From contig NZ_QWET01000012.1 of the NCBI RefSeq assembly GCF_003573545.1, forward strand, positions 62,001-126,000: a stretch of DNA of 64,000 nt. Direction: 5' to 3'. The notes under the pieces were generated by a model. It had not been told where the DNA came from. It saw only the letters and a program-made list of their open reading frames with translations, and did not search any database. Origin of the DNA: Mariniphaga sediminis. GTDB lineage: Bacteria; Bacteroidota; Bacteroidia; Bacteroidales; Prolixibacteraceae. This document shows positions 3,338-31,637 of the stretch, in pieces. How positions within the stretch are numbered: position 1 is the stretch's first letter; each line of letters begins with the position of its first letter. Position numbers and translations under genes: made by a program.

Positions 3338-3985
3338 ATGAATCAGCTTTTCGTAAAAGAAATTAAAACTCAGAAGTCGGTTAGTTTCTCTGAAGCAGAA
3401 CATTTACTGGAGAAGCATTGTGTTTCCAATCCTATTCAGATTTTAAACTGGAAAGATTTTAGTTATATGCCGAAAGTCAATTTTCGGATAGGGCACACAG
3501 GAGATGAAATCTGGCTAAAATACTATGTAAAAGAAAAACACATCAGGGCCAGGGAAACCCGCACTAACGGTGATGTTTACAAAGACAGTTGTGTGGAATT
3601 TTTCATTTCGCCCGGAGAGAAAAATTATTACAATTTCGAGTTTAGCTGTATTGGCACCATCCACCTTGGCTATGGCCCGGGAAGAGGCAACCGGAAATTT
3701 GTCGATCCAAAAATTATTGAAAAGATTGATATTAAATCGTCGCTGGGAAGCGCTCCGTTCAATGACAAATCAGGAAACTTTGAATGGGAAATGATGATTC
3801 GGATTCCGATTGAATCTTTTGCTTACAGCAACCTGAAAACCTTTAAAGGATTGAATGCAGAAGCCAATTTTTACAAATGCGGAGAAGAAACAGCTGTGAT
3901 GCATTATGTTACGTGGAACCCCATCAAAACTGAAAATCCGGATTACCATCGCCCCGAGTTCTTTGGGAAGGTGCAATTCGAATAA
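3338..3985 (+). CDS. CBM9-like / DOMON-fold carbohydrate-binding protein
   Basis: A 215-residue protein matching the carbohydrate-binding family-9-like domain found widely in Bacteroidota. The recognisable stretch is DSCVEFFISP, followed by YYNFEFSCIGTIHLGYG and the closing HRPEFFGKVQF. The fold is a beta sandwich that in other proteins binds sugars or haem. No signal peptide is visible, so it is either cytoplasmic or exported by an unrecognised signal. It is a stand-alone domain, not fused to an enzyme. A terminator follows directly, so it is probably monocistronic. Confidence 0.75.
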   Translation: MNQLFVKEIKTQKSVSFSEAEHLLEKHCVSNPIQILNWKDFSYMPKVNFRIGHTGDEIWLKYYVKEKHIRARETRTNGDVYKDSCVEFFISPGEKNYYNFEFSCIGTIHLGYGPGRGNRKFVDPKIIEKIDIKSSLGSAPFNDKSGNFEWEMMIRIPIESFAYSNLKTFKGLNAEANFYKCGEETAVMHYVTWNPIKTENPDYHRPEFFGKVQFE

Positions 3986-5017: not shown

Positions 5018-5605
5018 ATGAATGTACTGGAGAAAACATTGGTCGACTCATTAAAGAAGGGAAACCACAAATCCTTTGAACTGGTATTTAAAACCTACTA
5101 TCCCCGATTGTGTACTTACGCATTCGACTACACCAAACAACTGGAGACAGCCGAGGACATTGTAAAAGATTTTTTCCTCGATTTTTGGCAAAACCGGGAA
5201 AAAATTTCCATAAAAACTTCCATGTCGGGTTACCTTTTCAGGTCGGTACACAACGCCTGCATCAACTACCTGGAAAGGGAAAAAAGAAAAAACAAGACAC
5301 TTTTGGTGGAGGATATAACGGTAGTCGAACTGAAAATCAGGCAGCCACTTTCTCCCGATTATCCCGTTGGAAATATTTTGGCCAAAGAACTGGAAGAACA
5401 GATAAACCTTCAAATCGAAAAACTTCCACCACAATGCAGGGAAATTTTTATACTGAGCCGTTTTGAAGGACTGTCGCACAAAAAAATTTCTGAAAAACTG
5501 AATATTTCTGAGAATACAGTTAAGGTTCAAATATTCAGAGCATTAAAAAACATCAAAGAAGCCCTTCCACACCTATTCATTCTTCTTTTCTCATTCTTCA
5601 AATAA
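5018..5605 (+). CDS. ECF sigma-70 factor, Bacteroidota SusC-associated type
   Basis: A 195-residue extracytoplasmic-function sigma factor. Region 2 spans about residues 22-90 (YPRLCTYAFDY, DIVKDFFLDFWQNRE) and region 4 about residues 130-185, with the helix-turn-helix LSHKKISEKLNISENTVKVQ. It belongs to the large Bacteroidota group of sigma factors that sit upstream of fecR and susC genes and activate them when the outer-membrane ligand is sensed. The FecR-like gene follows after 65 bp and susC after that, the classical trans-envelope signalling order. It would direct RNA polymerase to the susC promoter and probably its own. Confidence 0.93.
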   Translation: MNVLEKTLVDSLKKGNHKSFELVFKTYYPRLCTYAFDYTKQLETAEDIVKDFFLDFWQNREKISIKTSMSGYLFRSVHNACINYLEREKRKNKTLLVEDITVVELKIRQPLSPDYPVGNILAKELEEQINLQIEKLPPQCREIFILSRFEGLSHKKISEKLNISENTVKVQIFRALKNIKEALPHLFILLFSFFK

Positions 5606-5670
5606 AAAAAACACTCCCCCTTGTAATACCTCCAGGTAAAAATTGTGTCATCATAATTAGAAAACAAAAA

Positions 5671-6792
5671 ATGAAAGAGAACTTAAACATAACAGAAAAC
5701 GAGAAAAAAGCCCTCATCGATTATTTCTCAGGAAAACTCACATCGGAAGAATCCGGGCTACTGAACAACTGGCTTGAAAAGAGTGAAGGCAACAAGTTGC
5801 TGTTCGACCAGATGACAGATATATGGCAAGCCAGCCATTTTACCCGGATAAATGACAAAATAAATATGGAAGATGCCTGGAAGGAAATTCAGGATCAACT
5901 AAGTAAAGAAAACAAAAAACCTATTCAGAGCTGGGTTAGGTTACTCAAAGTAGCCGCCGTTTTGATACTGGTTTTCATTCTGGGAGGAATTGGTCATGCT
6001 TTGCTTCACAGCAAACCCAATATTGCAGATCCCTTTCTTGTTGAATATGTAGCCCCTCTTGGTTCACGCTCGTTTGTAAAAATGCCCGACGGTAGTAAAA
6101 TCTGGCTCAATGCCGGAACAACGCTGTCATACAATAGCCATTTCGGCATTGAAAACCGTGCAATAAACCTTTCGGGCGAAGCTTTTTTCGAAGTAGAAAA
6201 AAACCCGGCGCTTCCGTTTACAGTTCAAACCAGTGAATTAAATATTACAGCGCTCGGCACAAAGTTCGATGTAAAAGCTTACAGCGAAGAAAAAACCATT
6301 GAAACCACGTTAATTGAAGGCTCTGTCAGATTGGAAGGAAATAATTTCAAACTAACAGAAGATGTGATACTCACGAGGAACGAAAAAGCCATTTTTACAA
6401 AACATAGTAAATCCGTTGATTTTATTGATACTAATCAATCCTTAAAAGAAAATGAAACGGTGCCGAAACAAGAATCCGGATTAAAAATTATCACCTCCAT
6501 CGAACCGGATCCTATTATCTCCTGGAAAGATGAAAGGTGGATAATAAACAACGAAAAATTAGGTTCACTTTCCCAAAAACTGGAACGCCGGTATGCTGTG
6601 AACTTTATTTTCGACAACGAATTACTGAAAGAATATTCATTTGGAGGAACACTTGAAGACGAAACACTACAACAGGTGTTGGATGCTATTTGCTCAAGTT
6701 CCCCAATCAAATACGTCATTGAAGGAAAAACAGTTTACATAATGTCTGATAATCAAAAAATGGGAAAATTTAAACATTTGCTTATGAAATAA
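5671..6792 (+). CDS. FecR family anti-sigma factor
   Basis: A 373-residue inner-membrane anti-sigma regulator. The cytoplasmic N-terminal part (1-90) binds the sigma factor, and a single transmembrane helix lies at about 92-112. The FecR domain follows at about 118-225 (SRSFVKMPDGSKIWLNAGT; GEAFFEVEKN; TALGTKFDVKAY). The C-terminal domain at about 290-360 is the DUF4974 type. The periplasmic part would receive the signal from the STN domain of SusC and release or activate the upstream ECF factor. It is intact and of usual length, and lies in an operon with the sigma gene (65-bp gap). Confidence 0.93.
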   Translation: MKENLNITENEKKALIDYFSGKLTSEESGLLNNWLEKSEGNKLLFDQMTDIWQASHFTRINDKINMEDAWKEIQDQLSKENKKPIQSWVRLLKVAAVLILVFILGGIGHALLHSKPNIADPFLVEYVAPLGSRSFVKMPDGSKIWLNAGTTLSYNSHFGIENRAINLSGEAFFEVEKNPALPFTVQTSELNITALGTKFDVKAYSEEKTIETTLIEGSVRLEGNNFKLTEDVILTRNEKAIFTKHSKSVDFIDTNQSLKENETVPKQESGLKIITSIEPDPIISWKDERWIINNEKLGSLSQKLERRYAVNFIFDNELLKEYSFGGTLEDETLQQVLDAICSSSPIKYVIEGKTVYIMSDNQKMGKFKHLLMK

Positions 6793-6808
6793 AATCCGTA
6801 TTTAAAAA

Positions 6809-6877
6809 GGGAGATCAGTATGACCTCCCAAATCTTGTGTAAAGATAATGTTGCTTCATATTGGCACTATGAGGCAA
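6809..6877 (+). promoter_or_regulatory. Two hairpins in the fecR-susC gap
   Basis: Two inverted repeats occupy the short fecR-susC gap. The first is GGGAGATCA (6809-6817) with TGACCTCCC (6821-6829), with one mismatch. The second is GTTGCTTCATA (6850-6860) with TATGAGGCAAC (6867-6877), with one T-G pair. Neither is followed by a T run. They may form mRNA structures that separate or tune fecR and susC expression, or flank an ECF-dependent promoter. The role is inferred. Confidence 0.4.
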
Positions 6878-6906
6878 CACATTTTAAACCTTAACGATTC
6901 AAAAAT

Positions 6907-9900
6907 ATGAAAAATTTTTTTAAGGAACTGTCTCTTCCTTGTAAACGAGGCATTAAAAAGGTTTTACTTATGACGAAACTAACATTCTTTCTAAGCGTAT
7001 TTCTGGTCTTGCAAATGTCCGCAAGCGTGTATTCGCAAACGCGCTTGTCCATCAAATCCAAAAACAAAACAGTAAAAGAGGTATTTTGGGACATTGAGAA
7101 ACAGAGTGAGTTTCGTTTCTTTTACAACGAAGATTTTGTGGATATGAAACGCAAAGTCGACTTTAACATTGAAAACGAAACGATTACTGAAATCATGGCT
7201 CAACTTTTCGATTTTTCGAAAACCACCTATAAAATTGCAGAAAATAACCTCATTGTGATTATTCCGGCCGAAGGGCAACAGCCCCAAACGGTAAGAGGCA
7301 AAGTCACCACAGCCCAGGGAGAGCCAATTCCGGGTGTAACTGTTATGCTCAAAGGAACCAATTCCGGAACGGTTACAGATGTCAATGGAAGTTATTCCAT
7401 TACAATTCAGCAACCAAACGATGTCCTCGCATTTTCTTTCGTAGGTCTTTTAACCCAGGAGCTTGAGATTGGAGAACAATCGACGATTAATGTAACGATG
7501 AAAGAAGATATAGTGGGAGTGGATGAAGTAGTTATAGTCGGCTACGGGAGTCAAAGAAAAGTAAATCTCACCGGAGCCATTGCGACAGTTGACGGGGAAG
7601 CTCTTGCCCGGCGCCAGGTAGCTCAGTCCTCCATGGTATTACAGGGTGTTGCTCCCGGTGTGGTAGTCACTCAGCGCAGTGGTCAGCCCGGACGCGATGG
7701 CGGAGCGATCAGCATCAGGGGAAAAACAACACTGGGCAACAGCAATCCTCTCATCCTTGTTGACGGGATAGAAATGGGAATTAACAACATCGATCCTACT
7801 TTAATTGAATCCGTCTCTATATTAAAAGATGCAGCATCTTCATCCATCTATGGTTCAAGGGCTGCCAATGGTGTTATCCTGGTAACAACAAAAAGGGGGC
7901 AGCAAGACAAACTGTCTGTTTCGTACAACGGATATGTGGGAACACAACAACCTACCTTCCTTCCGAATATGGTAGGAGCCATTGACCACATGCTGCTTAC
8001 TAATGAAGCCTATGTAAACGTAGGTAAATCCCCTCTTTATTCAGAGGAATATATTGAGGAATACCGGCAGGGAATGGCAACCAATCCGGATAGGTATCCT
8101 GACACAGACTGGTACGACCAGGTCTTAACCGGTAATGGGTTAATGCAGAGTCACTTTTTAACGATGAACGGGGGAACTGAGAAAGTAAGGGTTTTGGCCT
8201 CACTCGGATACCTGGATCAAAACGGTATCATGTCAAATACCAATTTCGACCGATATACGTTACGCATCAATACCGACCTTAATTTAACCAAAAGCTTTTC
8301 AGCACAGGTTGATGCCCACATTAAACAATCTCATTTAGTTGAACCTTCAAGAGGAACAAACTCTGCAATCCACTGGTCGGGGCGCATACCCGCAAACCAG
8401 GGGGGTGTTCTTTCCAATGGGCAATGGGGCGAAGGTTGGAATGGAGATAACCCGATTGCTTTTACAAAAGACGGCGGGCTATATACCCAGGAGGCTCCTT
8501 CGTTTTCCCTGAACCTTGTTTTGAAATACCAACCCGTTGACTGGCTTTTTATGGATTTGGCCTACTCTCCAAACTACTGGCAATCCAATGTATCCGATTT
8601 TGTTAAAGCCATTCAAACCTACAGATGGGATGGCTCGGAAAGTTATAAAGCCCCCCAGAAAAGTACGCTCAACACAAGCCATAGCCGTAGTCTGCACAAT
8701 AACCTGAGAAGTACGATGACATTCAGCAAAGAATTTAAGGATCACGCGGTGAAATTACTTTTGGGTTATCAGCAGGAAGATTACCGAAACGATGCGCTAA
8801 GAGGCTACCGGGAGGTTTTTCCATTCCCTGATTATCCGGTACTGAATTCCGGTGGTGAAGAAAACCAGAAAGCTTACGGTTCGGCCAGCGAATGGGCGTT
8901 GCAGTCATTCTTTGGGAGGGTAAATTACGATTTCAAAGGACGATACCTGTTTGAAGCCAATTTCCGGCAAGATGGTTCATCGCGCTTTGTCACCGGCCGG
9001 AAATGGGGATTTTTCCCCTCATTCTCAGCAGGCTGGAGATTATCAGAAGAAAATTTCTTTGAATCACTTAGTCCTATTATAAATAATCTAAAAATCCGAG
9101 CTTCATGGGGACAATTAGGAAACCAGGATATTGGACTTTACCCGTTTTCTTCCGATGTTAATCTTGGATTGAAATATGTTTTCGACAAGCAGGTAAACAG
9201 CGGTGCAGGGATTACCAGTTTGGCCAACACCGAAATTTCGTGGGAAACGACCACAGCTTCCAATCTCGGCGTGGATCTTACTTTATTCGATCGCTTAAAT
9301 ATTGTGGCCGAATACTATTATAAAGTAACTGATGATATTCTTCTGGATCTTGATATTCCCAGGATTATTGGAATGGATGCCCCGGAACAAAACGCGGGAA
9401 AAGTTGAAAACAGAGGGTGGGACCTTGGTTTGAACTACAGCAATTGGGACAACGAATTTAAATATGAAATTGGCATCAACATTTCGGATGTAAAAAATAA
9501 GGTATTAGACTTAAAAGGCGTGAACAAAACCGGACTAACAGTTAATCACGAAGGATATCCCATGCTTTCCATATATGGTTTGGAGGCTGATGGATTTATT
9601 GAAGAGGAAGACTTTAATGAAGATGGGACATATAAATATGCCAGACAATATGGTACCATTGCACCCGGCGACATTAAATATATCGACCAGAATAATGACT
9701 CAATTATTAATGCCAGTGATTATAAAATAATTGGTGCAACAATACCCCGCTATACGTTTGGTCTCACGTTTAACGGCCAATACAAGAATTTCGATATTGG
9801 TATTTTTCTTCAGGGAGTAGGAAAGGCTGATGGAATAATCCGCGATCAGGGTATTATGCCATTTCTTATGGGAGGTACTATCCAGGAACAACACAAAGAC

Positions 9901-10215
9901 CGTTGGACCCCTGACAATAAGGATGCAACATTCCCTCGTTTTGCATTTAATGAAACCAATAATGAACAAACATCAAGTTTCTGGATGCGCAATGCGGCTT
10001 ATATGCGGCTAAAAAACCTGCAGGTTGGCTATTCCTTGCCGGCAAGTGTAACCAACCGGATAAAAGCCGAAAAGCTTCGTATTTACCTGAGTGGACAAAA
10101 CCTGCTTACCCTGGAAAACTTCTGGGATGGATACGATGTTGAGGCTCCTGTGGGTAATGGAGGTTACTATCCACAAGTAAAAACTTTCAGTATTGGTGTT
10201 GATGTCAAATTTTAA
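6907..10215 (+). CDS. SusC/RagA-family TonB-dependent outer-membrane transporter with STN domain
   Basis: A 1102-residue outer-membrane transporter. A long signal peptide ends near residue 44 (SVYSQ). An STN (secretin/TonB short N-terminal) domain at about 46-115 marks it as a transducer that signals to FecR. A carboxypeptidase-regulatory-like domain follows at about 125-205 (VRGKVTTAQGEPIPGVTV). The plug is at about 215-330 (VVIVGYGSQRKVNLTGA; PLILVDGIE; AASSSIYGSRAANGVILVTTK), and the rest is the barrel ending in IGVDVKF. It imports ligand through the outer membrane with TonB/ExbBD energy, paired with the SusD lipoprotein 12 bp downstream. The substrate cannot be told from sequence. Confidence 0.95.
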   Translation: MKNFFKELSLPCKRGIKKVLLMTKLTFFLSVFLVLQMSASVYSQTRLSIKSKNKTVKEVFWDIEKQSEFRFFYNEDFVDMKRKVDFNIENETITEIMAQLFDFSKTTYKIAENNLIVIIPAEGQQPQTVRGKVTTAQGEPIPGVTVMLKGTNSGTVTDVNGSYSITIQQPNDVLAFSFVGLLTQELEIGEQSTINVTMKEDIVGVDEVVIVGYGSQRKVNLTGAIATVDGEALARRQVAQSSMVLQGVAPGVVVTQRSGQPGRDGGAISIRGKTTLGNSNPLILVDGIEMGINNIDPTLIESVSILKDAASSSIYGSRAANGVILVTTKRGQQDKLSVSYNGYVGTQQPTFLPNMVGAIDHMLLTNEAYVNVGKSPLYSEEYIEEYRQGMATNPDRYPDTDWYDQVLTGNGLMQSHFLTMNGGTEKVRVLASLGYLDQNGIMSNTNFDRYTLRINTDLNLTKSFSAQVDAHIKQSHLVEPSRGTNSAIHWSGRIPANQGGVLSNGQWGEGWNGDNPIAFTKDGGLYTQEAPSFSLNLVLKYQPVDWLFMDLAYSPNYWQSNVSDFVKAIQTYRWDGSESYKAPQKSTLNTSHSRSLHNNLRSTMTFSKEFKDHAVKLLLGYQQEDYRNDALRGYREVFPFPDYPVLNSGGEENQKAYGSASEWALQSFFGRVNYDFKGRYLFEANFRQDGSSRFVTGRKWGFFPSFSAGWRLSEENFFESLSPIINNLKIRASWGQLGNQDIGLYPFSSDVNLGLKYVFDKQVNSGAGITSLANTEISWETTTASNLGVDLTLFDRLNIVAEYYYKVTDDILLDLDIPRIIGMDAPEQNAGKVENRGWDLGLNYSNWDNEFKYEIGINISDVKNKVLDLKGVNKTGLTVNHEGYPMLSIYGLEADGFIEEEDFNEDGTYKYARQYGTIAPGDIKYIDQNNDSIINASDYKIIGATIPRYTFGLTFNGQYKNFDIGIFLQGVGKADGIIRDQGIMPFLMGGTIQEQHKDRWTPDNKDATFPRFAFNETNNEQTSSFWMRNAAYMRLKNLQVGYSLPASVTNRIKAEKLRIYLSGQNLLTLENFWDGYDVEAPVGNGGYYPQVKTFSIGVDVKF

Positions 10216-10227
10216 TTGTAAAAAAAT

Positions 10228-11925
10228 ATGAAATCAAAAATAAAATATTCCATTTTAACCATTTTACTAACATTTGCGTTGGTATCATGCGAAGATTATC
10301 TGGAAAAATATCCGCTAAATAATCCATCTGACGCCACATTTTTATCTAACGAAACAGAGCTGAAGATGGCAGTGGCCGGTTGCTACAACATATTATGGTC
10401 GCGAGTACAATCAATGCCATTTGTTCCTGTTTTCGATCAAGTATCTGATATTGGCTGGGACAGGAATGGTTCTCCGCTTCAGGCAGCAGGGCGTGGTGAC
10501 GCTGATTCAAGAAATGCCGATTTGTTAGGCCTTTGGACAAATTTATACCAAGGCATATCAAGATGCAATTATTTGATTACAAACATGGAAAGAGGACAAG
10601 AAAACATACCGGCTCAGGTTTTTGCACAGAGCAAAGCAGAAGCCCGATTTCTTAGAGCACTCTATTACCATTATCTAATAGAACTTTGGGGTGGAGTTCC
10701 ATTGGTAACAACTCCTTTATCTCTGTCTGAGTCTAATGTTCCAAGAGCTACAAAATCGGACATCGCTGACTTTCTGATTACTGAATTGAACGAATGCGCC
10801 AATGATTTGCCGCAAGAAACCAATCCTTTATCGGGAAGAGCTTCAAAAGCAGCAGCGTGGGCACTCGTATCAAGAATAGCTTTGTATAATGAACGTTGGA
10901 GCGATGCTATTTCTGCTGCGCAAAAAGTAATGGCCATGGAAGGCACAGAAGTACTTTTACATGACAACTATATGGATCTTTTCCAATATGCCGGGCAGGA
11001 TTCAAAAGAAATAATTTTTTCTGTTCAATTCCTGAAAGGAGAACAGATGCACTCTATGTTTCGCTTCTTTGGTACCCGAAATGCAAAAGGACATACCAAT
11101 AAGAAGCCAAGTTACCAAACTGCTGACACGTGGGAATGTATTGACGGACTTCAGATTGATGAATCGCCATTGTATGATCCGCAAAATCCATTTGCAAACA
11201 GAGACCCCAGGTTAAATTTTACGCTTTCATTGCCTGGTTCTATCTTTTTGGGATTTCAGTATGAAACCCACGGCGACAGCCTTTATTGCTGGAATTACAA
11301 TGTGGATCCGCCGCAAAGAATACCCAACCTGGAAGCCACTCACGCTTATGCCACATTTACCGGAATTGGCTGGCGAAAATATGCCGATAACCTGGATAAA
11401 GATGCTGTAAACGACAGTGAGCTGAATATGATTGTAATGCGCTATGCTGAAGTCTTGCTTAACTACGCTGAAGCAAAAATTGAAGCCGGTCAAATAGACC
11501 AGTCTGTTCTTGATGCCATCAACAAAGTGAGACAGCGTCCAACAGTTGAGATGCCTCCAATTACAACCACTGATCAAACAGAACTGAGGTATGCAGTAAG
11601 ACGCGAAAGAAAATATGAATTGTCTTGTGAAGGACTCCGTCTTTTCGATATCCGCAGGTGGAAAATTGCAGAGAATGTTATGAATCTGCCTGTTCTGGGT
11701 CGTATGAAAAAAGCGTATCCAGCTATTGCCCCAAGAGTAGACGAACACGGAACATCGTATTACGACAATATTCCGATAGCTCAGCAGGGAGAATCAGCAG
11801 ACTTTAAAATGCGCGTGGTGGAGATTCGCTCTTTTGATAAAAATCGCGACTATTTATGGCCGATTCCTTATGTTGAAATGGATACAAATTCAGAAATGAC
11901 ACAAAATCCCGGATACGGGGATTAG
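10228..11925 (+). CDS. RagB/SusD family nutrient-binding outer-membrane lipoprotein
   Basis: A 565-residue SusD-like lipoprotein with lipobox Cys at residue 21 (ALVSCEDY). It shows the family landmarks EKYPLNNPSDATFLSNE, the TPR-like AEARFLRALYYHYLIELWGGVPLV, and the C-terminal RRERKYELSCEGLRLFDIRRWK with the ending QNPGYG. It caps the SusC barrel and binds substrate at the cell surface. It is cotranscribed with susC (12-bp gap), and a strong terminator follows 16 bp after the stop. The downstream flavoprotein genes therefore need read-through or their own promoter. Confidence 0.95.
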   Translation: MKSKIKYSILTILLTFALVSCEDYLEKYPLNNPSDATFLSNETELKMAVAGCYNILWSRVQSMPFVPVFDQVSDIGWDRNGSPLQAAGRGDADSRNADLLGLWTNLYQGISRCNYLITNMERGQENIPAQVFAQSKAEARFLRALYYHYLIELWGGVPLVTTPLSLSESNVPRATKSDIADFLITELNECANDLPQETNPLSGRASKAAAWALVSRIALYNERWSDAISAAQKVMAMEGTEVLLHDNYMDLFQYAGQDSKEIIFSVQFLKGEQMHSMFRFFGTRNAKGHTNKKPSYQTADTWECIDGLQIDESPLYDPQNPFANRDPRLNFTLSLPGSIFLGFQYETHGDSLYCWNYNVDPPQRIPNLEATHAYATFTGIGWRKYADNLDKDAVNDSELNMIVMRYAEVLLNYAEAKIEAGQIDQSVLDAINKVRQRPTVEMPPITTTDQTELRYAVRRERKYELSCEGLRLFDIRRWKIAENVMNLPVLGRMKKAYPAIAPRVDEHGTSYYDNIPIAQQGESADFKMRVVEIRSFDKNRDYLWPIPYVEMDTNSEMTQNPGYGD

Positions 11926-11941
11926 CTTAGTTTAGTTCATT

Positions 11942-11977
11942 GTGGTTCCCCGGCGAAACCCAGGGAACCACTTTTTT
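11942..11977 (+). terminator. Intrinsic terminator after susD
   Basis: GTGGTTCCC (11942-11950) pairs perfectly with GGGAACCAC (11963-11971) across a 12-nt loop, followed by six Ts and more T-rich sequence. It separates the sus genes from the flavoprotein genes. Confidence 0.9.
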
Positions 11978-12118
11978 CTTTTTGTTCTCAAAAAAATAGG
12001 AAGAATAGTACTATACCCGTTATATTAGCGCCAAACATTAAGTAATGTTTAAACCGCTTAATTTTCTAACTGTTTTATTTATTAAAATTTCATTTATTTC
12101 GGATTTAATGAATGGGAG

Positions 12119-12148
12119 TTTGGATATAATACCCTTTTCCTAATTTAT
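12119..12148 (+). promoter_or_regulatory. Possible promoter for the flavoprotein genes
   Basis: TTTG at 12119-12122 followed after 18 bp by TAATTTAT (12141-12148) is a partial match to the Bacteroidota TTTG/TAnnTTTG promoter; the last two bases of the -7 element deviate. It lies in the 220-bp gap between the susD terminator and the first FAD gene. A promoter is expected there, but this placement is tentative. Confidence 0.3.
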
Positions 12149-12197
12149 TCTAGAAATACTAAAAAATGTAATCATTATTAACCATTAAGATATTACT

Positions 12198-13904
12198 ATG
12201 TTTGCTACAAAAAAATTTCTGACAATTATTCTTGCACTGATTGTGTCATCAATATTTCCATTCGATGCCCAAAGTCAAACAAAGGAGTACGACATTGTAA
12301 TTTACGGGGGAACCTCTGCCGGGATTGCGGCAGCCATTCAAAGTTCGCGTATGGGGAAATCGGTAGTGGTAATTGAACCATCCACACGACTCGGAGGATT
12401 AACCACCGGCGGGCTGGGAGCCACTGACATTGGTAACAAACAGGCCGTTGGCGGAATTTCCCGTGAGTTTTACCAGAATATTAAAAGGTATTACGAAAAA
12501 CCGGAAAACTGGAAATGGCAGAAACCGGAAGAATACCGACAAAGCAGAAACAAAAAAGGAGAAGATGCGATGTGGACTTTTGAACCGTCAGTTGCATTAA
12601 AAGTATATGAAAAAATGATGGCAGCCGAAAAAATCGATGTGGTCTATGAGCAACGGCTGAACCGAAAAAACGGTGTAAAGAAACAGGCAAAAAAGATTGT
12701 GGAAATTGAAATGGAAGGCGGACAGAAATACCGTGGAAAAATGTTTATCGACGCCACTTACGAGGGTGACTTAATGGCAACTGCCGGTGTTAGTTACACC
12801 TACGGCCGTGAATCAAACAAGGAATATGGCGAAACATTGAATGGGGTTCAGGCCAATGATATTGGCATAACCCTCAAAAGGGGCGTTTCACTCAACAGCA
12901 TTCACCACAATTTTATTGATGGCGTTGATCCCTACGTTGTACAAGGCGATCCTTCGAGCGGATTATTGCCGTTTATTGTTGAAGGTGGCCCCGGTATTGA
13001 CGGGCGTGGCGACAAAGGTATTCAGGCCTACTGTTTCCGTATGACCCTGACCGACCATCCGGACAACCGCATTCCTTTTAAAAAGCCTGTTGGGTACAAC
13101 GAACTGGAATATGAACTCCTTTTCCGGAATTATGAAGCTGCCGAAGGGCCGATTGAAGAAATGTACCATTACGGCGATCCACTGGTTCCCTGGATAAATT
13201 CAGCGATGCCTAACCGGAAAACCGACACCAACAACCAGAAGGGTTTCTCTACCGATTTTATCGGGCAGAACTGGGATTATCCGGAAGGCAGCTATGAAGA
13301 ACGTGAAAAAATTATCGAACGGCACCGGTCGTACCAGCAGGGATTAATGTGGACCCTGGCCTACCATCCGCGTATTCCGGAGAAAGTAAGAGACGCCGTT
13401 TCGAAATGGGGAACCTGCAAAGATGAGTACGAACGGGAAGACGGTTGGCAGCAGCAGTTGTATATCCGCGAAGCACGCCGGATGATTAGCGATTATGTAA
13501 TGACCCAACGCCACTGCGAAGGATTGGATGTGGCTGAAGATCCGGTTAGCCTGGCAGCCTACGGAATGGATTCGCACCAGGTGCAACGCTATGTAGATGC
13601 CAATGGTTATGTCCAGAACGAAGGCAACGTGGAAGCACATGGATTTTCACCCTACCCTATCAGCTACCGTTCCATCATTCCCAAAAAAGAAGAATGCAAC
13701 AACCTGCTGGTACCTGTTTGCGTAAGTTCGACCCACATTGCTTTCGGCTCCATTCGTATGGAACCTGTCTTTATGATTTTGGGCCAGTCGGCAGCCACTG
13801 CAGCGGCTTTGGCCATCGAAAACAAAACAGATGTACATGCACTGGACTACAACATTCTGAAAAGCCGTTTGCTGGAAGACAAACAAATTCTGGCACACGA
13901 ATGA
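12198..13904 (+). CDS. Exported FAD-dependent oxidoreductase (FAD_oxidored family), Sec signal
   Basis: A 568-residue flavoprotein of the PF12831-type FAD-dependent oxidoreductase family. A Sec signal peptide (about 1-27) is followed directly by the dinucleotide-binding strand [17 protein letters not shown] (about 30-46). The motif GGLTTGGLG (about 66-74) and a C-terminal flavin-contact segment, [20 protein letters not shown], complete the fold. It should bind FAD in the periplasm or outside. The substrate is unknown; relatives are often annotated only as FAD-dependent oxidoreductase or, weakly, xanthan lyase. The next gene, 38 bp downstream, is a clear paralogue. The location behind susC/D suggests it acts on the imported ligand. 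Confidence 0.88.
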
Positions 13905-13942
13905 GATAAAGTTTCTTTCAATACTTACTAAAACGAAATAAA

Positions 13943-15637
13943 ATGAAGTCGAATCATAAATACCTGTTTGGGGCAACAACATTCCTGGGACTCCTTTTTA
14001 TACTATTCATATTCCAGGGATGTAAAAATCAGCCCGCCCATACTTTTGAGGCCGACGTAGTTATTTACGGAGGCACATCGGCTGCTGTTATCGCCGCAGT
14101 TGAGGTGGCTCAATCGGGCAAATCCGTCATTGTCGTTTCTCCCGACATTCATTTGGGAGGACTGACCGCAGGTGGACTGGGTTGGACTGACACCGGCAAA
14201 AAAGAGACCATTGGCGGGCTGGCCCGAAATTTTTACCACCGCGTGTACAACCATTACCAACAGGACGAGGCCTGGAAATGGATGCAAAAGGAAGAATACG
14301 GGAATACCGGCCAGGGAACTCCTGCCATTGACGGGGACATGCGTACTATGTGGATTTTTGAGCCGCACATTGCCGAACAGGTTTTTGAAGAGCTGATTCA
14401 GGAAAATAACATTGAATTGTATCGTGATGAATGGCTCGACCGGAAAAACGGAGTAAAAAAGACCGATGGAAAGATTACTTCTATCACCACACTTTCCGGC
14501 AAAACATTCCAGGGAAAAATGTTTATGGATGCCACTTACGAAGGCGATTTGCTGGCTTCGGCCGGGGTTAGTTACCACGTGGGCCGCGAAGGCACCAATG
14601 TTTACGGGGAAGAGTGGAACGGAGTACAAACAGGGGTTTACCACCACCGGCACCATTTTAAAGTACTTGCCCAGCCTATCGACCCCTATTGGGAGCCGGG
14701 GAATCCGGTAAGCGGACTGCTACCACGCATTAGCCCCGACCCACCGGGAGAAAAAGGCGAAGGCGATAACCGGATACAGGCATACTGTTTCAGGGTATGC
14801 ATGACCAACCATCCTGAAAACCGCATCCCTTTTCCCAAACCTGAAGGCTACGATTCCACCCAGTATGAATTGTTGGTGCGTATTTTTGATGCCGGCTGGC
14901 GCGAATGGTTCGGGAAGTTCGACGCCATTCCCAACCGGAAAACCGACACCAACAACCACGGCCCTTTTAGCAGCGACAATATCGGAATGAATTACGATTA
15001 CCCCGAAGCCAGCTACGAACGCCGCAGGGAAATCATCAAAGAACATGAAACTTACCAAAAGGGACTCCTTTGGTTTGTAGCTAACGACAAGCGGGTTCCC
15101 GAAGACATTCAGACAGAAATGAAAAAATGGGGCCTGCCAAAAGATGAGTTTACAGACAACGGGCATTGGCCTCATCAAATCTATGTACGTGAAGCCCGGC
15201 GAATGATTGGCAAATTTGTGATGACAGAAAACGAGTTGCTGAAGCGCACTCCCACTCCCCAATCGGTAGGGATGGGTTCCTACACCATTGATTCCCACAA
15301 TGTGCAACGATATGTAGATGAAAACGGACACGTTCATAATGAAGGCGATATCGGTGTTTCACTACCCGGTCCCTACGAAATTGCCTATGGCGCCCTGGTC
15401 CCTAAAAAAGAAGAGTGCCAGAACCTGCTGGTTCCGGTCTGTGCATCTGCCAGCCACATTGCTTTTGGCTCCATTCGGATGGAACCGGTATTTATGATTC
15501 TTGGCCAGTCGGCGGCAGTAGCTGCCTGCATGGCTATCGACAAAAACAGTGCTGTTCAGGATGTGGAGTACGAAAAACTAAAAAAACGGCTGTTGCATAA
15601 AGGACAGGTATTAACCCTGGAAAATATCATTCAATAA
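13943..15637 (+). CDS. FAD-dependent oxidoreductase lipoprotein, paralogue of the previous gene
   Basis: A 564-residue paralogue of the preceding flavoprotein, with the same domain order and many shared blocks ([33 protein letters not shown], the [19 protein letters not shown] end). The N-terminus differs: a hydrophobic helix ends in FQGC, with the lipobox Cys at residue 27, so this copy should be membrane-anchored by lipidation. The FAD-binding YGGTSAAVIAA segment follows at about 42-52. Tandem duplication with a change of export signal is the simplest explanation. It is presumably cotranscribed with both neighbours (38 and 53-bp gaps). Substrate unknown. Confidence 0.88.
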   Translation: MKSNHKYLFGATTFLGLLFILFIFQGCKNQPAHTFEADVVIYGGTSAAVIAAVEVAQSGKSVIVVSPDIHLGGLTAGGLGWTDTGKKETIGGLARNFYHRVYNHYQQDEAWKWMQKEEYGNTGQGTPAIDGDMRTMWIFEPHIAEQVFEELIQENNIELYRDEWLDRKNGVKKTDGKITSITTLSGKTFQGKMFMDATYEGDLLASAGVSYHVGREGTNVYGEEWNGVQTGVYHHRHHFKVLAQPIDPYWEPGNPVSGLLPRISPDPPGEKGEGDNRIQAYCFRVCMTNHPENRIPFPKPEGYDSTQYELLVRIFDAGWREWFGKFDAIPNRKTDTNNHGPFSSDNIGMNYDYPEASYERRREIIKEHETYQKGLLWFVANDKRVPEDIQTEMKKWGLPKDEFTDNGHWPHQIYVREARRMIGKFVMTENELLKRTPTPQSVGMGSYTIDSHNVQRYVDENGHVHNEGDIGVSLPGPYEIAYGALVPKKEECQNLLVPVCASASHIAFGSIRMEPVFMILGQSAAVAACMAIDKNSAVQDVEYEKLKKRLLHKGQVLTLENIIQ

Positions 15638-15690
15638 CGGGCAAATAAAATCAGACCCGGTTCTGATTTGCGAAAAAATATAAAACCATA

Positions 15691-18600
15691 ATGATGAAAC
15701 GACGAAACTTTGTAAAAACCGCGGCAGCCGGGTCAGCATTTTTGCTGACCCCGGGGGCATTTGCTTTTAACTACTCCTCGAATCCGGACGAAAAAAAATA
15801 TTGCTACCAGTCGGAACGAAAAATACCGGTGGCTTACAACGTAGATGTAGTTGTTATCGGCGGATCGCTGGCAGCCGTGGCAGCAGCGACAGATGCCGCA
15901 CAGAACGGGGCAAAAGTTTTCCTCGTCGCCCAGGAACCTTACCTCGGTGAAGATATTTGCGGAACATACCGTTTGTGGACGAGCGATCAAAGCATTTTAA
16001 ATACCGAACTGGGCAAGAAAATTTTCGGAGAAGGCCTGCCCACCCCGATGCATGTAAAACGTACTCTCGACAATGAACTGATTAATAACAATGTCGACTT
16101 CCTTTATTCCAGTTATGTAACCGATATTCTGAACGATAAGAATGACCAACCTGCCGGAGTTGTCATCTCCAACCGTTCCGGAAGACAGGCCATCTTTGCA
16201 AAAACAATTATCGACGCTACCCCGCGGGCTTTGGTGGCCCGAATGGCTGGAGCGCAGTTCGGAAGTTATCCTTCGGGAAAGCAAACCTTCAAATTTACCG
16301 TTGTGGGAAACAAGTTGAAGCAAACGCCCGGACTCACCGGAAAAATTCACGACGAGCAGGTGCAGCTAAAATTTGTGTCAACAGGGAATACACAGGGGAG
16401 TGGTTTTTCCGATGCCGATATCCGTTACAATGCCATAGAGTATACCATTCAGATTGACATGAAAGACGGCAGTTGGGCTTCGTTTGCCGAAGCAGAGCAA
16501 ATGGCCCGCGACCTAACCTGGGACTCAGATCAGGTAGAGTCGGCAGATCTCCTTTTCCAAAATCCACCGGACAAAATGGTGGGGCAAAAAAGGTGGAACA
16601 ATGCCAGCGTAGATTTGGAAAACATCAACCTGAAAGTTTTTCAGCCACGAAAGCCAGAAAACATTTTTGTGTTGAGCGGAAGCGCTAATTTGAGCGATGC
16701 AGCAGCAGAAACCTTGCTCCAGCCGGGCAAACTTATCCGGATTGGAGAACGGATTGGGAAAGAGGCCGCAACGATTGCCAGCACGTTAACCAAAATACAA
16801 TCGGCTAAAATAAAAGGCATCAACCAACAAAATATACTGCCTGGTGATGTGGGCGAGATTTTGGAAGGACTACGCCCGTCACTGAACCTGGACGAAGTGG
16901 TTGCCGAAGAGACAACCTTGCCTGTTTTGGGCACTTACGATGTAGTAGTAATGGGCGGCGGAACAGCCGGCGCTCCCGCGGCAGTTGGCGCATCTCAACA
17001 GGGAGCAAAAACATTGGTGCTCGACTACATGCACGGAATGGGGGGCATGGGAACCCTGGGCATGATCGGAAAATATTACCACGGGTACCGGAAAGGGTAC
17101 ACCAACATTGTAGATCTCGGTGTTAAAAATATAGACCCGGATAATCCCCGAAAAAAGAAGTCACTCGGCGAATGGGTTTTCGACTGGAAAACAGAATATT
17201 TCCGGAAAGAAATCCGTAATGCAGGTGGCGATATCTGGTTTGGGGTGCTGGGCAGTGGAGCCTATGTGGAAAACGGACAGGTGAAAGGTGTAGTGGTGGC
17301 AACCCCGGAAGGCAAAGGGGTGGTGCTTGCCCACACGGTGATCGATTCGACCGGAAGTGCGGATATTGCCATTGCGGCAGGAGCAGAATATAGCTATACC
17401 GACGGACTTTCAGTGGCAGTGCAGGGGGCAGGTTTACCCTTTAAAAATCCCGACGATTTTTATAATAACACCGACTGGACATTCATCAGCGACTCCGACA
17501 TGCTGGATGTGTGGCGGGCATTTATTGTGGCCAAAGATAAATTCAAAGAACAATACGACATCGGAAAGATACCACAAACCCGCGAGCGCCGGCGAATGGT
17601 GGGCGATTTCACAGTGGGCGTGCTTGATGTTTACAACCACCGAACATATCCTGATACCATTTCGGCACATCTTAGCTCGTTCGACACGCATGGGTTTACC
17701 GAGGATCCGTTCTTCTCGTTAAAACCTCCGGCTCACAGCGGAGTGGATGTTCTGGCATTTGTCCCCTTCAGGGCACTTCTTCCCAAAGGACTGGAAGGGA
17801 TTGCTGTTACGGGACTGGGGGCAAGCGCCCACCGGGATGCCATGCCGGTTATCCGCATGCAGCCCTGCTTGCAAAACCAGGGATATGCCGTAGGAATGGC
17901 TGCCGCATGGGCAAAATTTAACAACCAAAAAATCCGGTACGTTGATGTAAAAGCGCTGCAAAAAGAGCTGGTACAAATTGAAAGTTTGCCGGAGCATGTG
18001 CTTACTGACGTGGACAATTTTCCACCGCCCTACGAAAAAATTCAGCAGGCTGCCCAAACAGTGGTGAATGACCTGGAAGGGCTGGAAATTATTTTATGGG
18101 ATAAAGAAAGAGGAATTACGGCATTAACGGATAAATTTCATTTGTCTCAAAACGAAGAACACAAACTTGTTTATGCGCGCATTCTCGGCATGCTGGGGGA
18201 ACAGGACGGCTGGCAGGAACTGATTGCCGCCCTTGATAGCTACGACGATTGGGATGAAGGCTGGAATTTCACCGGCATGGGCCAGTTCGGAAAGAGTATC
18301 AGCTACCTCGACAGCCTGATTATCGCTACCGGAAGGACGGGAAGAACAGAGGCACTTCCATCCATCATTCGCCTGGCAGAAAAGCTAACACCCGAAAGCC
18401 ACTTCTCACACTTCAGGGCTGTTGCCATTGCCCTGGAAACCATTGGCGATCCCAAAGGAGCTGAACCGCTTTTCAAAATACTGGAATTGCCCGGTGTACG
18501 GGGACATACAATGCCTGATATCAAAACAGCGAAAGAACGCACTCCCGCCCATAAAAACGATGTTTCAACCCGAAACAATTCATTGCGGGAACTAATATTG

Positions 18601-18753
18601 GGCCGTGCGCTATACAAATGTGGCGACTACAATGGTGTAGGGAACCAGATTCTGAACGATTACTCCAAAGACCTGCGCGGACATTATTTCCGCCATGCCA
18701 ATGGAGTTCTTCAGCTATTTTCAGGACAAAAGGAAAAAGAAATAGAGTTATAA
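15691..18753 (+). CDS. Tat-exported double-FAD-domain oxidoreductase with HEAT-like C-terminus
   Basis: A 1020-residue protein with a twin-arginine signal (MMKRRNFVKTAAAG), implying export in a folded, cofactor-loaded state. Two consecutive FAD-binding modules are visible. The first starts at about residue 50 (NVDVVVIGGSLAAVAAA) and the second at about 416 (YDVVVMGGGTAGAPAA, then GMGGMGTLGMIG). Residues from about 820 form an all-helical tail with HEAT-like repeats (LPSIIRLAEKL; AVAIALETIGDPKGAEPLFKIL). The first module is shorter and may be partly degenerate. It is the third gene of the flavoprotein set. Start choice between the Met codons at 15691 and 15694 is arbitrary. Substrate unknown. 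Confidence 0.85.
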   Translation: MMKRRNFVKTAAAGSAFLLTPGAFAFNYSSNPDEKKYCYQSERKIPVAYNVDVVVIGGSLAAVAAATDAAQNGAKVFLVAQEPYLGEDICGTYRLWTSDQSILNTELGKKIFGEGLPTPMHVKRTLDNELINNNVDFLYSSYVTDILNDKNDQPAGVVISNRSGRQAIFAKTIIDATPRALVARMAGAQFGSYPSGKQTFKFTVVGNKLKQTPGLTGKIHDEQVQLKFVSTGNTQGSGFSDADIRYNAIEYTIQIDMKDGSWASFAEAEQMARDLTWDSDQVESADLLFQNPPDKMVGQKRWNNASVDLENINLKVFQPRKPENIFVLSGSANLSDAAAETLLQPGKLIRIGERIGKEAATIASTLTKIQSAKIKGINQQNILPGDVGEILEGLRPSLNLDEVVAEETTLPVLGTYDVVVMGGGTAGAPAAVGASQQGAKTLVLDYMHGMGGMGTLGMIGKYYHGYRKGYTNIVDLGVKNIDPDNPRKKKSLGEWVFDWKTEYFRKEIRNAGGDIWFGVLGSGAYVENGQVKGVVVATPEGKGVVLAHTVIDSTGSADIAIAAGAEYSYTDGLSVAVQGAGLPFKNPDDFYNNTDWTFISDSDMLDVWRAFIVAKDKFKEQYDIGKIPQTRERRRMVGDFTVGVLDVYNHRTYPDTISAHLSSFDTHGFTEDPFFSLKPPAHSGVDVLAFVPFRALLPKGLEGIAVTGLGASAHRDAMPVIRMQPCLQNQGYAVGMAAAWAKFNNQKIRYVDVKALQKELVQIESLPEHVLTDVDNFPPPYEKIQQAAQTVVNDLEGLEIILWDKERGITALTDKFHLSQNEEHKLVYARILGMLGEQDGWQELIAALDSYDDWDEGWNFTGMGQFGKSISYLDSLIIATGRTGRTEALPSIIRLAEKLTPESHFSHFRAVAIALETIGDPKGAEPLFKILELPGVRGHTMPDIKTAKERTPAHKNDVSTRNNSLRELILGRALYKCGDYNGVGNQILNDYSKDLRGHYFRHANGVLQLFSGQKEKEIEL

Positions 18754-18871
18754 ACTACTCGTTCAAAACAGCGTACTCAAAATAAAATTACAGGGATTTA
18801 TTGTTCCGCTGGAAGAGACAATAATATATCTGGCGAATCAAGAGTTGATATTAGCTAATTATCAGTAATTC

Positions 18872-19045
18872 AACCCACTTTGGGGTTTCGTCTTTACCCC
18901 GCATTGCCTTCCCCGAGCTTCGCATGGGGCTATTTTAATTTATGTCCTTCGGACACTTCTTTATCCCGAAAGGGATTAAATAATAATAGCCATGGGTAAA
19001 ACCCGTGGTAATAAAGTGGATATGATAAGAACCCCGAAGTGGGTT
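18872..19045. repeat. Hairpin-rich REP/MITE-like intergenic element
   Basis: The element is bounded by a 16-bp inverted repeat with one mismatch: AACCCACTTTGGGGTT (18872-18887) and AACCCCGAAGTGGGTT (19030-19045). Between these ends lie several smaller hairpins: GTCC-ttc-GGAC, ATCCC-gaaa-GGGAT (18963-18976) and CCATGGG-taaa-ACCCGTGG. It fills most of the 311-bp gap between the flavoprotein locus and the convergent editing-domain gene. Nested GC-rich hairpins of this style are dispersed in many Bacteroidota genomes and resemble REP/MITE elements. Only one copy is visible in this window, so mobility is inferred. Confidence 0.55.
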
Positions 19046-19064
19046 CAGCCCTTCGAATATATCA

Positions 19065-19478
19065 TCAGAGCGTAGCCCAAATCCGGGCCAGTGAGTGGCC
19101 GGACGCCTTCAGTTGCAAATCAAGAAAATAACCGAAAGGTGTTTGTGCTGTAGTGTATCCGCCGTTTTGCAACCGCTTTTCTGCCAAATCGAAAACCTCC
19201 CTGGTAAATTCCACGGAGGCTTTGGAATCGGAAAGATGCGCAAACGAATGCAGAATTATTTTTGTGCAGTTGTTTTTGCGGGCGGTCCACTTCAGATGGT
19301 TTACCAGCTTTTTCTCCCGGCTTTTTACATCGTTATCTTCATCTGTCTTTTCTATCTGGATAAATGCCAGAACAGAATCTGTAAAGCTGGCCCCTTCTGT
19401 TATTTCTTCTGCCGAATCCAGGTTTTTCTGCGCAGGAGTGTAACTGAATTCATCCACATACATCACAAGAACCTTCAT
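19065..19478 (-). CDS. Stand-alone threonyl-tRNA synthetase editing domain protein
   Basis: A 137-residue protein resembling the archaeal-type ThrRS editing domain (tRNA-Thr_ED, D-aminoacyl-tRNA-deacylase-like fold). It begins MKVLVMYVDEFSYTP, has a central strand KIILHSFAHLSDSK, and ends with TPFGYFLDLQLKASGHSLAR. In archaea this domain removes Ser or D-amino acids mischarged on tRNA-Thr; a free-standing bacterial copy could be a trans-editing factor. It directly abuts the upstream haem-binding gene (0-bp gap), so they share a transcript, an odd pairing. Function assignment rests on motif recognition only. Confidence 0.7.
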   Translation of the reverse strand: MKVLVMYVDEFSYTPAQKNLDSAEEITEGASFTDSVLAFIQIEKTDEDNDVKSREKKLVNHLKWTARKNNCTKIILHSFAHLSDSKASVEFTREVFDLAEKRLQNGGYTTAQTPFGYFLDLQLKASGHSLARIWATL

Positions 19479-19949
19479 CTATTCCTCCATTTCTGTAAGC
19501 AATTCTTCACTCAGTTTTCCGGTCCATTCACACAACAAAGCCTTCTGTTCTTCCGACAATCTTGCACCGGGATACATTAGCTTGTATGACTTGAGAGGCA
19601 TTTTCCCGTCCTCCACCTCTTCACACATTTTGTCCAGGGCAGATATCTTCTCCAACACATCCATATTGCCCCATTCCGATAAGTTTAATTCCTCCTTGCC
19701 GTTCACAACATGGCTGTTTACAAGCCATGAAGCCGGAGCAATGTGATTGTACCACCTGTACTTGGTTTGATTGGAATGGCAATCGAGACAGGAAGTTTTC
19801 AGCAGCGTTTTGATATCTTCCGGAACATCGGTTACTTCGAAAAGATGATCCCCTGTCATTTCTCCCTGGTTTTTCTCCGGTTGAAAAAACTGGATTACAA
19901 CAAGAGCTGTGATAAACAGAATAATAACGATGCGCAGAATTTTTTTCAT
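19479..19949 (-). CDS. Haem-binding-domain protein (c-type, CxxCH)
   Basis: A 156-residue protein of the Haem_bd type. An N-terminal uncleaved or cleavable hydrophobic helix (about 5-22) is followed by TSCLDCHSNQTKYRWYN with one c-type haem motif. A DGKMPLKSY segment supplies a possible distal Met. The start and end are unambiguous. It should be held in the periplasm at the inner membrane. It is the first gene of a pair with the editing-domain gene. A second, shorter haem-binding protein lies about 200 bp upstream on the same strand. These proteins may be small electron carriers; the partner is unknown. Confidence 0.83.
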   Translation of the reverse strand: MKKILRIVIILFITALVVIQFFQPEKNQGEMTGDHLFEVTDVPEDIKTLLKTSCLDCHSNQTKYRWYNHIAPASWLVNSHVVNGKEELNLSEWGNMDVLEKISALDKMCEEVEDGKMPLKSYKLMYPGARLSEEQKALLCEWTGKLSEELLTEMEE

Positions 19950-20142: not shown

Positions 20143-20532
20143 TTAGCTCCCAATAAGCTTTTTAGCTTCTTTTTCAGCCCACTCTGTTAAAATTTTAATC
20201 TGCTCTTCCGTAAGTTTTTTTTCCGGTCTTTTTTCCAGGAATTTTTTAGGCGGCATATCCCCTTCTTCCACCACCTTGGCAATATCTTTCAATTTTGTGA
20301 TTTTACGAACTTTCTGTAAGTCATCAAGCGTTTTAAAATCAAGTTCTTCCCGGGCATCCTCGTTCTGCGAATCAGTATTGTGACATCCAAAGCACGACTG
20401 ATCGATAATGGCATTCACCTCCTTGGGCATTGTCGTTTTACTCTTATCAGAAACTGTTCTAAAAGATGTATTCAGAATAAGAATGCCGGAAAAAACTGTT
20501 GCAATCAAAAAAACGGGGAATAATACTTTCAT
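20143..20532 (-). CDS. Haem-binding-domain protein, short (CxxCH)
   Basis: A 129-residue protein with an N-terminal hydrophobic segment (about 4-24), one c-type haem motif in DQSCFGCHNTDSQ, and the family pattern EEGDMPPKKF followed by a helical end LTEEQIKILTEWAEKEAKKL. It is related to the 156-residue neighbour but lacks the KYRWYNHIAP block. It is probably periplasmic and membrane-tethered. It lies divergently from the protease operon at 20706, with a 173-bp intergenic region between. Role in electron transfer is inferred. Confidence 0.82.
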   Translation of the reverse strand: MKVLFPVFLIATVFSGILILNTSFRTVSDKSKTTMPKEVNAIIDQSCFGCHNTDSQNEDAREELDFKTLDDLQKVRKITKLKDIAKVVEEGDMPPKKFLEKRPEKKLTEEQIKILTEWAEKEAKKLIGS

Positions 20533-30228: not shown

Positions 30229-30232
30229 ACCA

Positions 30233-31558: not shown

Positions 31559-31637
31559 CTTATCTGATTTTAATGAATATTCTTACACAAACGGTTCAAC
31601 AAATGACTTCAGATCACTGGAGAACAAGCCGGAAAAA

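Follow-up and report, generated by a model that had tools for sequence, protein, structure and literature searches.

A conserved SusC/SusD locus with PF12831 flavoproteins in Mariniphaga sediminis as a candidate for oxidative carbohydrate utilisation

What does a TonB-dependent SusC/SusD importer supply when the genes behind it encode flavoproteins and no hydrolase? The question is raised by a locus at positions 5018-18753 of a 64,000-nucleotide stretch of DNA from Mariniphaga sediminis (RefSeq assembly GCF_003573545.1, contig NZ_QWET01000012.1, positions 62,001 to 126,000), here called the window, which lies on contig C4 (our numbering) of a 5.8-Mb, 70-contig genome. Our reading, to which we give a probability of roughly 0.48, is that the locus serves TonB-dependent carbohydrate utilisation by an oxidative route.

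Gene order of the locus and its conservation

The locus consists of seven intact, co-directional open reading frames (ORFs) on the + strand. An extracytoplasmic function (ECF) sigma factor (5018..5605; TIGR02985, 172.9 bits; PF08281/PF04542) is followed by a FecR-type anti-sigma factor (5671..6792; PF04773 and PF16344, over cut-off), a SusC/RagA TonB-dependent transporter with an N-terminal STN-like region (6907..10215; TIGR04056, 958 bits), a SusD-like lipoprotein (10228..11925; PF07980, PF14322) and three proteins of the PF12831 family, F1 (12198..13904, 568 aa), F2 (13943..15637, 564 aa) and F3 (15691..18753, 1020 aa). susC and susD are adjacent, the arrangement by which a polysaccharide utilisation locus (PUL) is recognised, and Pfam and NCBIfam scans found no hydrolase, lyase, esterase or sulfatase among the seven genes. 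These results bear out what the original prediction had read from the DNA, namely the order ECF sigma-FecR-SusC-SusD, with each gene in its place and the families over cut-off, followed by three exported oxidoreductases dependent on flavin adenine dinucleotide (FAD) and by no glycosidase, lyase or sulfatase. The N-terminus of SusC scored 26.0 bits against STN (PF07660, curated cut-off 28.4), next to sigma and FecR genes that scored above theirs, and we consider an STN domain likely at this score below threshold. The best sequence match of the window SusD in the PDB was 3i4g (BF1063), and beyond generic titles the PDB relatives listed did not name a ligand.

In a test of conservation, we looked for the window SusD in 120 family genomes, and a SusD more than 50% identical was taken as an orthologue. 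Such a protein was found in eight other genomes (loci L109, L111, L112, L113, L118, L120, L127 and L128 of our survey). All eight carried at least two PF12831-type genes downstream of susD and a CstA gene nearby on the same strand; F3 was missing from the L127 and L128 genomes. An orthologous susCD pair without flavoproteins, named beforehand as the case that would speak against the linkage, was not among them. The co-occurrence for which the original prediction had proposed comparative genomics stood at 8/8. The base rate in the window genome was 5/75, the share of distinct PF07980 SusD matches with a long PF12831 match no more than 6 kb away, the window's own included (3 of 78 matches were dropped as duplicates between contigs C4 and C12; distances were taken from Pfam match ends). 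Because the eight genomes are mutually related, they do not represent eight independent events. The arrangement of SusCD with flavoproteins is genuine and conserved, and a specific transporter is linked to it.

Further loci were collected with an F3 profile, which gave 80 named loci (the best 80 of 193 places), and with F1, which added four regions in three more genomes. Four genomes found in this way also encode a SusD of more than 50% identity: Maribellus maritimus (L150), a Tannerella metagenome-assembled genome (MAG; L169), Parabacteroides acidifaciens (L196, the same as L239) and a Parabacteroides (L206). As F3 or F1 served as the query that led to them, their flavoproteins cannot count towards a test of the linkage; CstA was present in one of the four, L150. 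Among more distant SusD proteins (34-45% identity), L129, L131, L133 and L134 had a PF12831 gene of another type within 10 kb and L130 and L132 had none, so that the link appears to fade gradually with distance. One locus (L175), with sigma-FecR-SusC-SusD and F3, came from a MAG labelled as a Diapherotrites archaeon and is most likely contamination by a Bacteroidota contig.

Folding placed a terminator-like hairpin between susD and F1 (11942..11977, + strand; stem-loop 11942-11971, then U6), with a stability of -19.0 kcal/mol and a z score of -3.4 that none of 200 shuffles equalled, which agrees with the terminator that had been claimed past susD. A pattern scan for terminators did not pick it up, probably because the loop exceeds the length that the scan allows. 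By eye, a hairpin was seen at the equivalent position in L109 without a U-run and in L111 with one. The gap between susD and the next flavoprotein gene is 272 bp in the window and 67-214 bp in seven of the eight SusD-search loci, so the hairpin need not separate two unrelated units; in L111, CstA sits between susD and the flavoproteins.

The flavoproteins and the genes that accompany them

F1, F2 and F3 matched PF12831 with 388, 378 and 208 bits (E values 8.3e-116, 1.1e-112 and 4.1e-61; curated cut-off 27), in the case of F3 in three stretches. F1 and F2 are about 50% identical. Export signals, read by eye, were of the Sec type in F1, a lipobox (QGC) in F2 and of the Tat type (RRNFVK) in F3, and an RRxF-type motif occurred in the first 80 residues of 54 of 77 full-length F3 relatives. 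F3 combines two flavoprotein-like halves with C-terminal helical, HEAT-like repeats (HEAT_2 just under cut-off); the predicted local distance difference test (pLDDT) scores of the models were 73.8 for F1 and 79.6 for F3. The usual motif of flavoproteins at the dinucleotide site is GxGxxG; F1 and F2 have an invariant YGGTS at this position, and of the two motifs in F3 one is degenerate and one canonical. From family membership, all three are predicted to be FAD-binding redox enzymes. The M. sediminis genome contains 12 genes with long PF12831 matches, counting one copy of a stretch that is present twice in the assembly. F1 was found in 4 of 247 genomes of the class at E 1e-100, the window genome included, and in 72 of 120 family genomes at E 1e-40; the F3 search was positive in 31 of these 120.

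The gene most often joined to this module, by a link that formed no part of the original prediction, encodes a 480-aa CstA-family protein (PF02554) that matched the NCBIfam CstA model partially (106.8 bits, equivalog cut-off 1188). The reverse test was made on the 42 full-length genes of the main CstA subfamily (at least 72% identity to the L109 protein) in the 120 family genomes, and 28 of the 42 had an F1/F2 or F3 gene no more than 12 kb away (measured between gene starts), where about 1% would be expected by chance in genomes assumed to be 5.0 Mb. Another 16 CstA hits fell outside this set (13 of 53-63% identity and three fragments), and one of them had such a neighbour. The 18 weakest F1/F2 rows and four partial F3 rows were left out of the test, which can only have lowered the neighbour count. 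No PDB match of CstA was found at E 0.001. The window genome has a single CstA gene, which lies apart from the window locus on contig C23, in a second locus of similar kind (L140, G000:C23:303000-322999; FecR-SusC-SusD-PF12831-c8-CstA-nucleoside symporter-sulfatase-PhoD); it was left out of the count in the reverse test, its PF12831 gene being of a different type.

Clues to the chemistry came from a small set of gene neighbourhoods. In one run (L274, gaps 3-207 bp), a galactonate-type carrier of the major facilitator superfamily (MFS), IclR, a sugar-acid dehydratase, SMP-30, a short-chain dehydrogenase/reductase (SDR) and RraA are followed by a short protein resembling 2-keto-3-deoxy-gluconate (KDG) kinase, a NagB-like protein, an exported F1 orthologue (66% identity to the window F1) and DUF4432; four enzymes of this run were checked at the N-terminus and had no signal peptide. 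The same NagB-like family (74-76% identical) stands beside F3 in seven planctomycete loci, five of which also have DUF4432, and the run in L204 also holds PfkB kinase, PIG-L, xylose-isomerase-like and mannitol-phosphate-dehydrogenase-like proteins. Elsewhere, Gfo/Idh/MocA, a KDG-kinase-like gene and F3 stand in a row (L160), a DASS anion symporter (over cut-off) and a sugar-acid dehydratase lie upstream of F3 (L157), and a galactonate-type MFS gene lies past CstA in one of the eight SusD-search loci (L118). Operons that join F1 or F3 to sugar-acid enzymes suggest oxidation of a sugar by an exported flavoprotein, outside the cytoplasm, and import of the product by an acid carrier. Few as they are, they lend indirect support to the oxidative attack that the original prediction had raised as a possibility.

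A PF06439 3-keto-disaccharide hydrolase gene was found 64 bp behind F1-F2-CstA in one relative (L262). The window genome has 34 PF06439 matches; by coordinates, every one of them is more than 10 kb away from its long PF12831 matches. We rejected the 3-keto pathway as a straightforward match for the window locus, since PF06439 adjoins the module in that relative only.

A possible exit for the electrons was seen in a family of about 375 aa, here called c8, found near CstA or PF12831 in six of 36 fetched loci and in the C23 locus of the window genome. All seven members have the motif D-x-x-[ST]-x-A-T and three of the seven the full [ST]GAT; in L115, a c8 protein with the DxxSGAT motif adjoins a NapH-like polyferredoxin. 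Two c8 members scanned had no Pfam match, and one scanned had no NCBIfam match. PMC8238504 describes flavinylation at [S/T]GA[S/T] motifs, and NapH-like proteins, in the service of oxidases and reductases outside the cytosol. By Pfam, the window locus has no FMN_bind, DUF2271, DUF3570 with an ApbE motif or NapH-like protein, and the only candidate for such a flavinylated protein in relatives is c8. Electrons may leave through a flavinylated carrier and polyferredoxin proteins such as those near some related genes, and because the c8 and NapH-like genes lie outside the window locus, this route is a lead only.

An oxidative reading and its rivals

If the locus does work by oxidation, SusCD would bring a sugar, oligosaccharide or glycoside into the periplasm, where F1, F2 and F3 would dehydrogenate it to a keto-sugar, lactone or sugar acid. 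A CstA-family transporter of the organic-acid type, encoded on C23 here and beside the flavoproteins in close relatives, could then move the product inwards, cytoplasmic enzymes of the sugar-acid or KDG type would complete its breakdown, and electrons may exit through flavinylated carriers and polyferredoxins. Extended to a class of hydrolase-free utilisation loci in Prolixibacteraceae and gut Parabacteroides, in which an importer feeds a PF12831 trio that oxidises a sugar or glycoside and an acid carrier, mostly a dedicated CstA, leads into a sugar-acid pathway, the proposal is a tentative one that we consider less likely than not.

Several observations weigh against this oxidative route. CstA, c8 and sugar-acid genes are all absent from the window locus; the Tannerella and Parabacteroides loci lack CstA as well, so that gut Parabacteroides have the set without it, and F1 also occurs without SusCD (L237). 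The sugar-acid contexts are few (L274, L160, L157 and one planctomycete group), and, DASS aside, the NCBIfam names in them mostly scored under curated cut-offs. The flavoproteins are paired with a sugar porter in L201 and with a nucleoside-type symporter in the C23 locus, and by similarity PF06439-like genes numbered just one among the loci compared. PDB sequence searches (phmmer and profile) gave no solved structure for the PF12831 family, their matches covering mainly the dinucleotide-binding region. Foldseek gave no known reaction for it either, placing F1 and F3 only in the broad fold of succinate dehydrogenases, fumarate reductases, oxidases and monooxygenases, with TM-scores to the query of 0.13-0.31 among the matches listed. 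Solved structures were dropped as a route to the reaction, all three methods having yielded superfamily-level matches alone.

The company that related flavoproteins keep elsewhere bears on a rather unlikely alternative, in which an ordinary glycan is cut by hydrolases encoded elsewhere and the flavoproteins remove or alter an unusual decoration, such as a sugar that blocks hydrolysis. F1-F3 relatives also stand behind SusC/SusD proteins just 22-39% identical to those of the window (Mariniphaga LH_M28, Draconibacterium mangrovi, Proteiniphilum acetatigenes and several Parabacteroides), and related flavoproteins were found beside galactosidases, sulfatases and members of the glycoside hydrolase (GH) families GH2, GH27, GH36, GH42, GH78 and GH92. 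In the collection of 80 named F3 loci, which includes many short contigs, the same-strand run held SusC in 22 loci, SusD in 22, an F1/F2-like gene in 26, CstA in 14, a sulfatase in four, GH2 in three and GH36 in one. A scan of 74 further neighbours (74 of 93 selected from 158 unlabelled operon ORFs) showed, in the first 25 of 81 families, two each of Melibiase_2, alpha-L-fucosidase and GH28 and one each of GH42, GH92 and a GH78 rhamnosidase domain. The Proteiniphilum locus (L189) has sulfatase genes on its flanks, in L239 the end of a convergent GH20 gene comes within 127 bp of the flavoprotein run, a convergent GH2 gene lies two genes beyond F3 in L109, and an SGNH-esterase-like gene (by eye) lies upstream of the sigma gene in L169. 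In the window genome itself, other PF12831 loci have sulfatase or esterase neighbours, and distinct SusD matches number 75. As a general rule, the phrase "instead of glycoside hydrolases" finds no support. What speaks against the decoration account is that no hydrolase was recognised in the same-strand runs of the orthologous SusCD loci or of most Parabacteroides loci, of whose ORFs a part was scanned; the hydrolase-free state is a feature of this SusCD clade and of most Parabacteroides loci, not of the flavoproteins generally.

Two further readings, each drawing in part on the fold matches, are of lower probability still. CstA has been reported as a peptide carrier. On the least probable of our readings, this carrier would act with a SusCD like RagAB, and the flavoproteins would oxidise amines or amino acids; the Foldseek matches of F1 include aminoacetone oxidase, sarcosine oxidase and NikD, and two neighbours in F3 loci look peptidase-like by eye (L212_8, L208_6), whereas the recognised neighbours are mostly carbohydrate or sugar-acid enzymes and sulfatases, and the first 25 of 81 families in the neighbour scan included no peptidase. 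The other, which we consider improbable, is anaerobic reduction: the imported compound would serve not as food but as the acceptor to which the flavoproteins pass electrons, as urocanate or fumarate reductases do. Several hosts of these loci are anaerobes, and urocanate reductase, flavocytochrome c fumarate reductase and SDHA appear among the Foldseek matches. Flavinylated proteins, too, often serve such reductases (PMC8238504). These matches hold at the superfamily level only, however, and the linked acid-type importer and KDG-type genes suggest a product that is imported and catabolised.

The rest of the window, and known systems

The locus occurs a second time in the assembly. C4, from base 9796 to its end, is an almost exact repeat of C12 (read from base 1) wherever the two were compared; the repeat spans about 151 kb (C4:20001-54796 and C4:126001-141241 were left out of the comparison), and one unit of about 188 bp differs near 34.8 kb of the window. 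A recent duplication was rejected, since the second copy starts at the end of C12 and matches in every stretch compared; this near-identity looks like assembly redundancy.

Upstream of the sigma gene, a CBM9_2 protein, which may or may not belong to the locus, is encoded at 3338..3985 (+; PF16011, 232 bits; no signal peptide seen), and its homologues adjoin the F3 gene in L122 (the same as L161) and the F1/F2-CstA pair in L268. Beyond F3, positions 18834-19050 hold one copy of a structured repeat, some 215-225 bp long, that is dispersed over the genome in about 20 more long copies (81-93% identity) and has a folding z of -5.3 and no Rfam match at E 1; it resembles a miniature inverted-repeat transposable element (MITE), and its other copies have ends resembling terminal inverted repeats (CGAATCAA..TTGATTCG). 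A free-standing threonyl-tRNA synthetase editing domain of archaeal type, here in a bacterium, lies at 19065-19478 (-; PF08915, E 2.5e-35). Convergent with F3 are two small proteins with CxxCH haem motifs, seen by eye (19479-19949 and 20143-20532, both -), which we rejected as haem electron acceptors, since they have no relative in the loci compared. Farther along, 28849-33119 (-) contains genes for a sugar MFS transporter, xylose isomerase and a xylulokinase-like protein in a row, named by reading only, and 57569-62614 (-) a 1681-aa ORF with internal DNA repeats at a spacing of about 399 bp (self-similar hits).

PF12831 flavoproteins were frequent in the loci seen, yet no characterised member or solved structure was found in our searches. 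No paper on these loci was recognised in the literature searched, and PMC11345257, PMC6987092 and PMC11131199, as far as their accessible parts go, were unrelated or held passing mentions only; the term "undescribed" therefore holds within that literature and is claimed no more widely. Should sugars indeed be oxidised outside the cytoplasm, predictions based on hydrolases would have overlooked an oxidative arm of glycan breakdown, in common gut Parabacteroides included, and the flavoprotein-CstA pair would offer a handle on the substrate of this CstA subfamily.

Of the known systems, the 3-keto-glycoside pathway combines a PF06439 hydrolase with a Gfo/Idh/MocA or GMC dehydrogenase. In this pathway, glycoside oxidation is said (Nasseri, Nature, 2024) to be an alternative to direct hydrolysis. 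Our locus would share with it the theme of glycoside oxidation, and its genome and one relative have the PF06439 genes described above; unlike that pathway, it has no PF06439, Gfo/Idh/MocA or GMC gene, and its putative dehydrogenases belong to another family. Extracytosolic flavin-based electron transfer, with its ApbE-flavinylated and NapH-like proteins (PMC8238504), has a parallel in the similar motif of c8 beside related flavoproteins, once with a NapH-like polyferredoxin; none of its components is in the window locus, and flavinylation of c8 is putative. The CstA/BtsT carriers of organic acids resemble the linked transporter in its match to PF02554 and to part of the NCBIfam CstA model, whereas that protein, at 480 aa, falls far under the equivalog cut-off, and its gene is on another contig in the window genome. 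The window locus itself resembles the PULs of Bacteroidota with SusC/SusD and ECF sigma/FecR in gene order, the SusCD pair, the sigma and anti-sigma genes and the hairpin after susD, and it differs from them in having three PF12831 flavoproteins in place of a GH, lyase, esterase or sulfatase. Built on an enzyme family for which we found no tested function, the locus is a variant of this known type.

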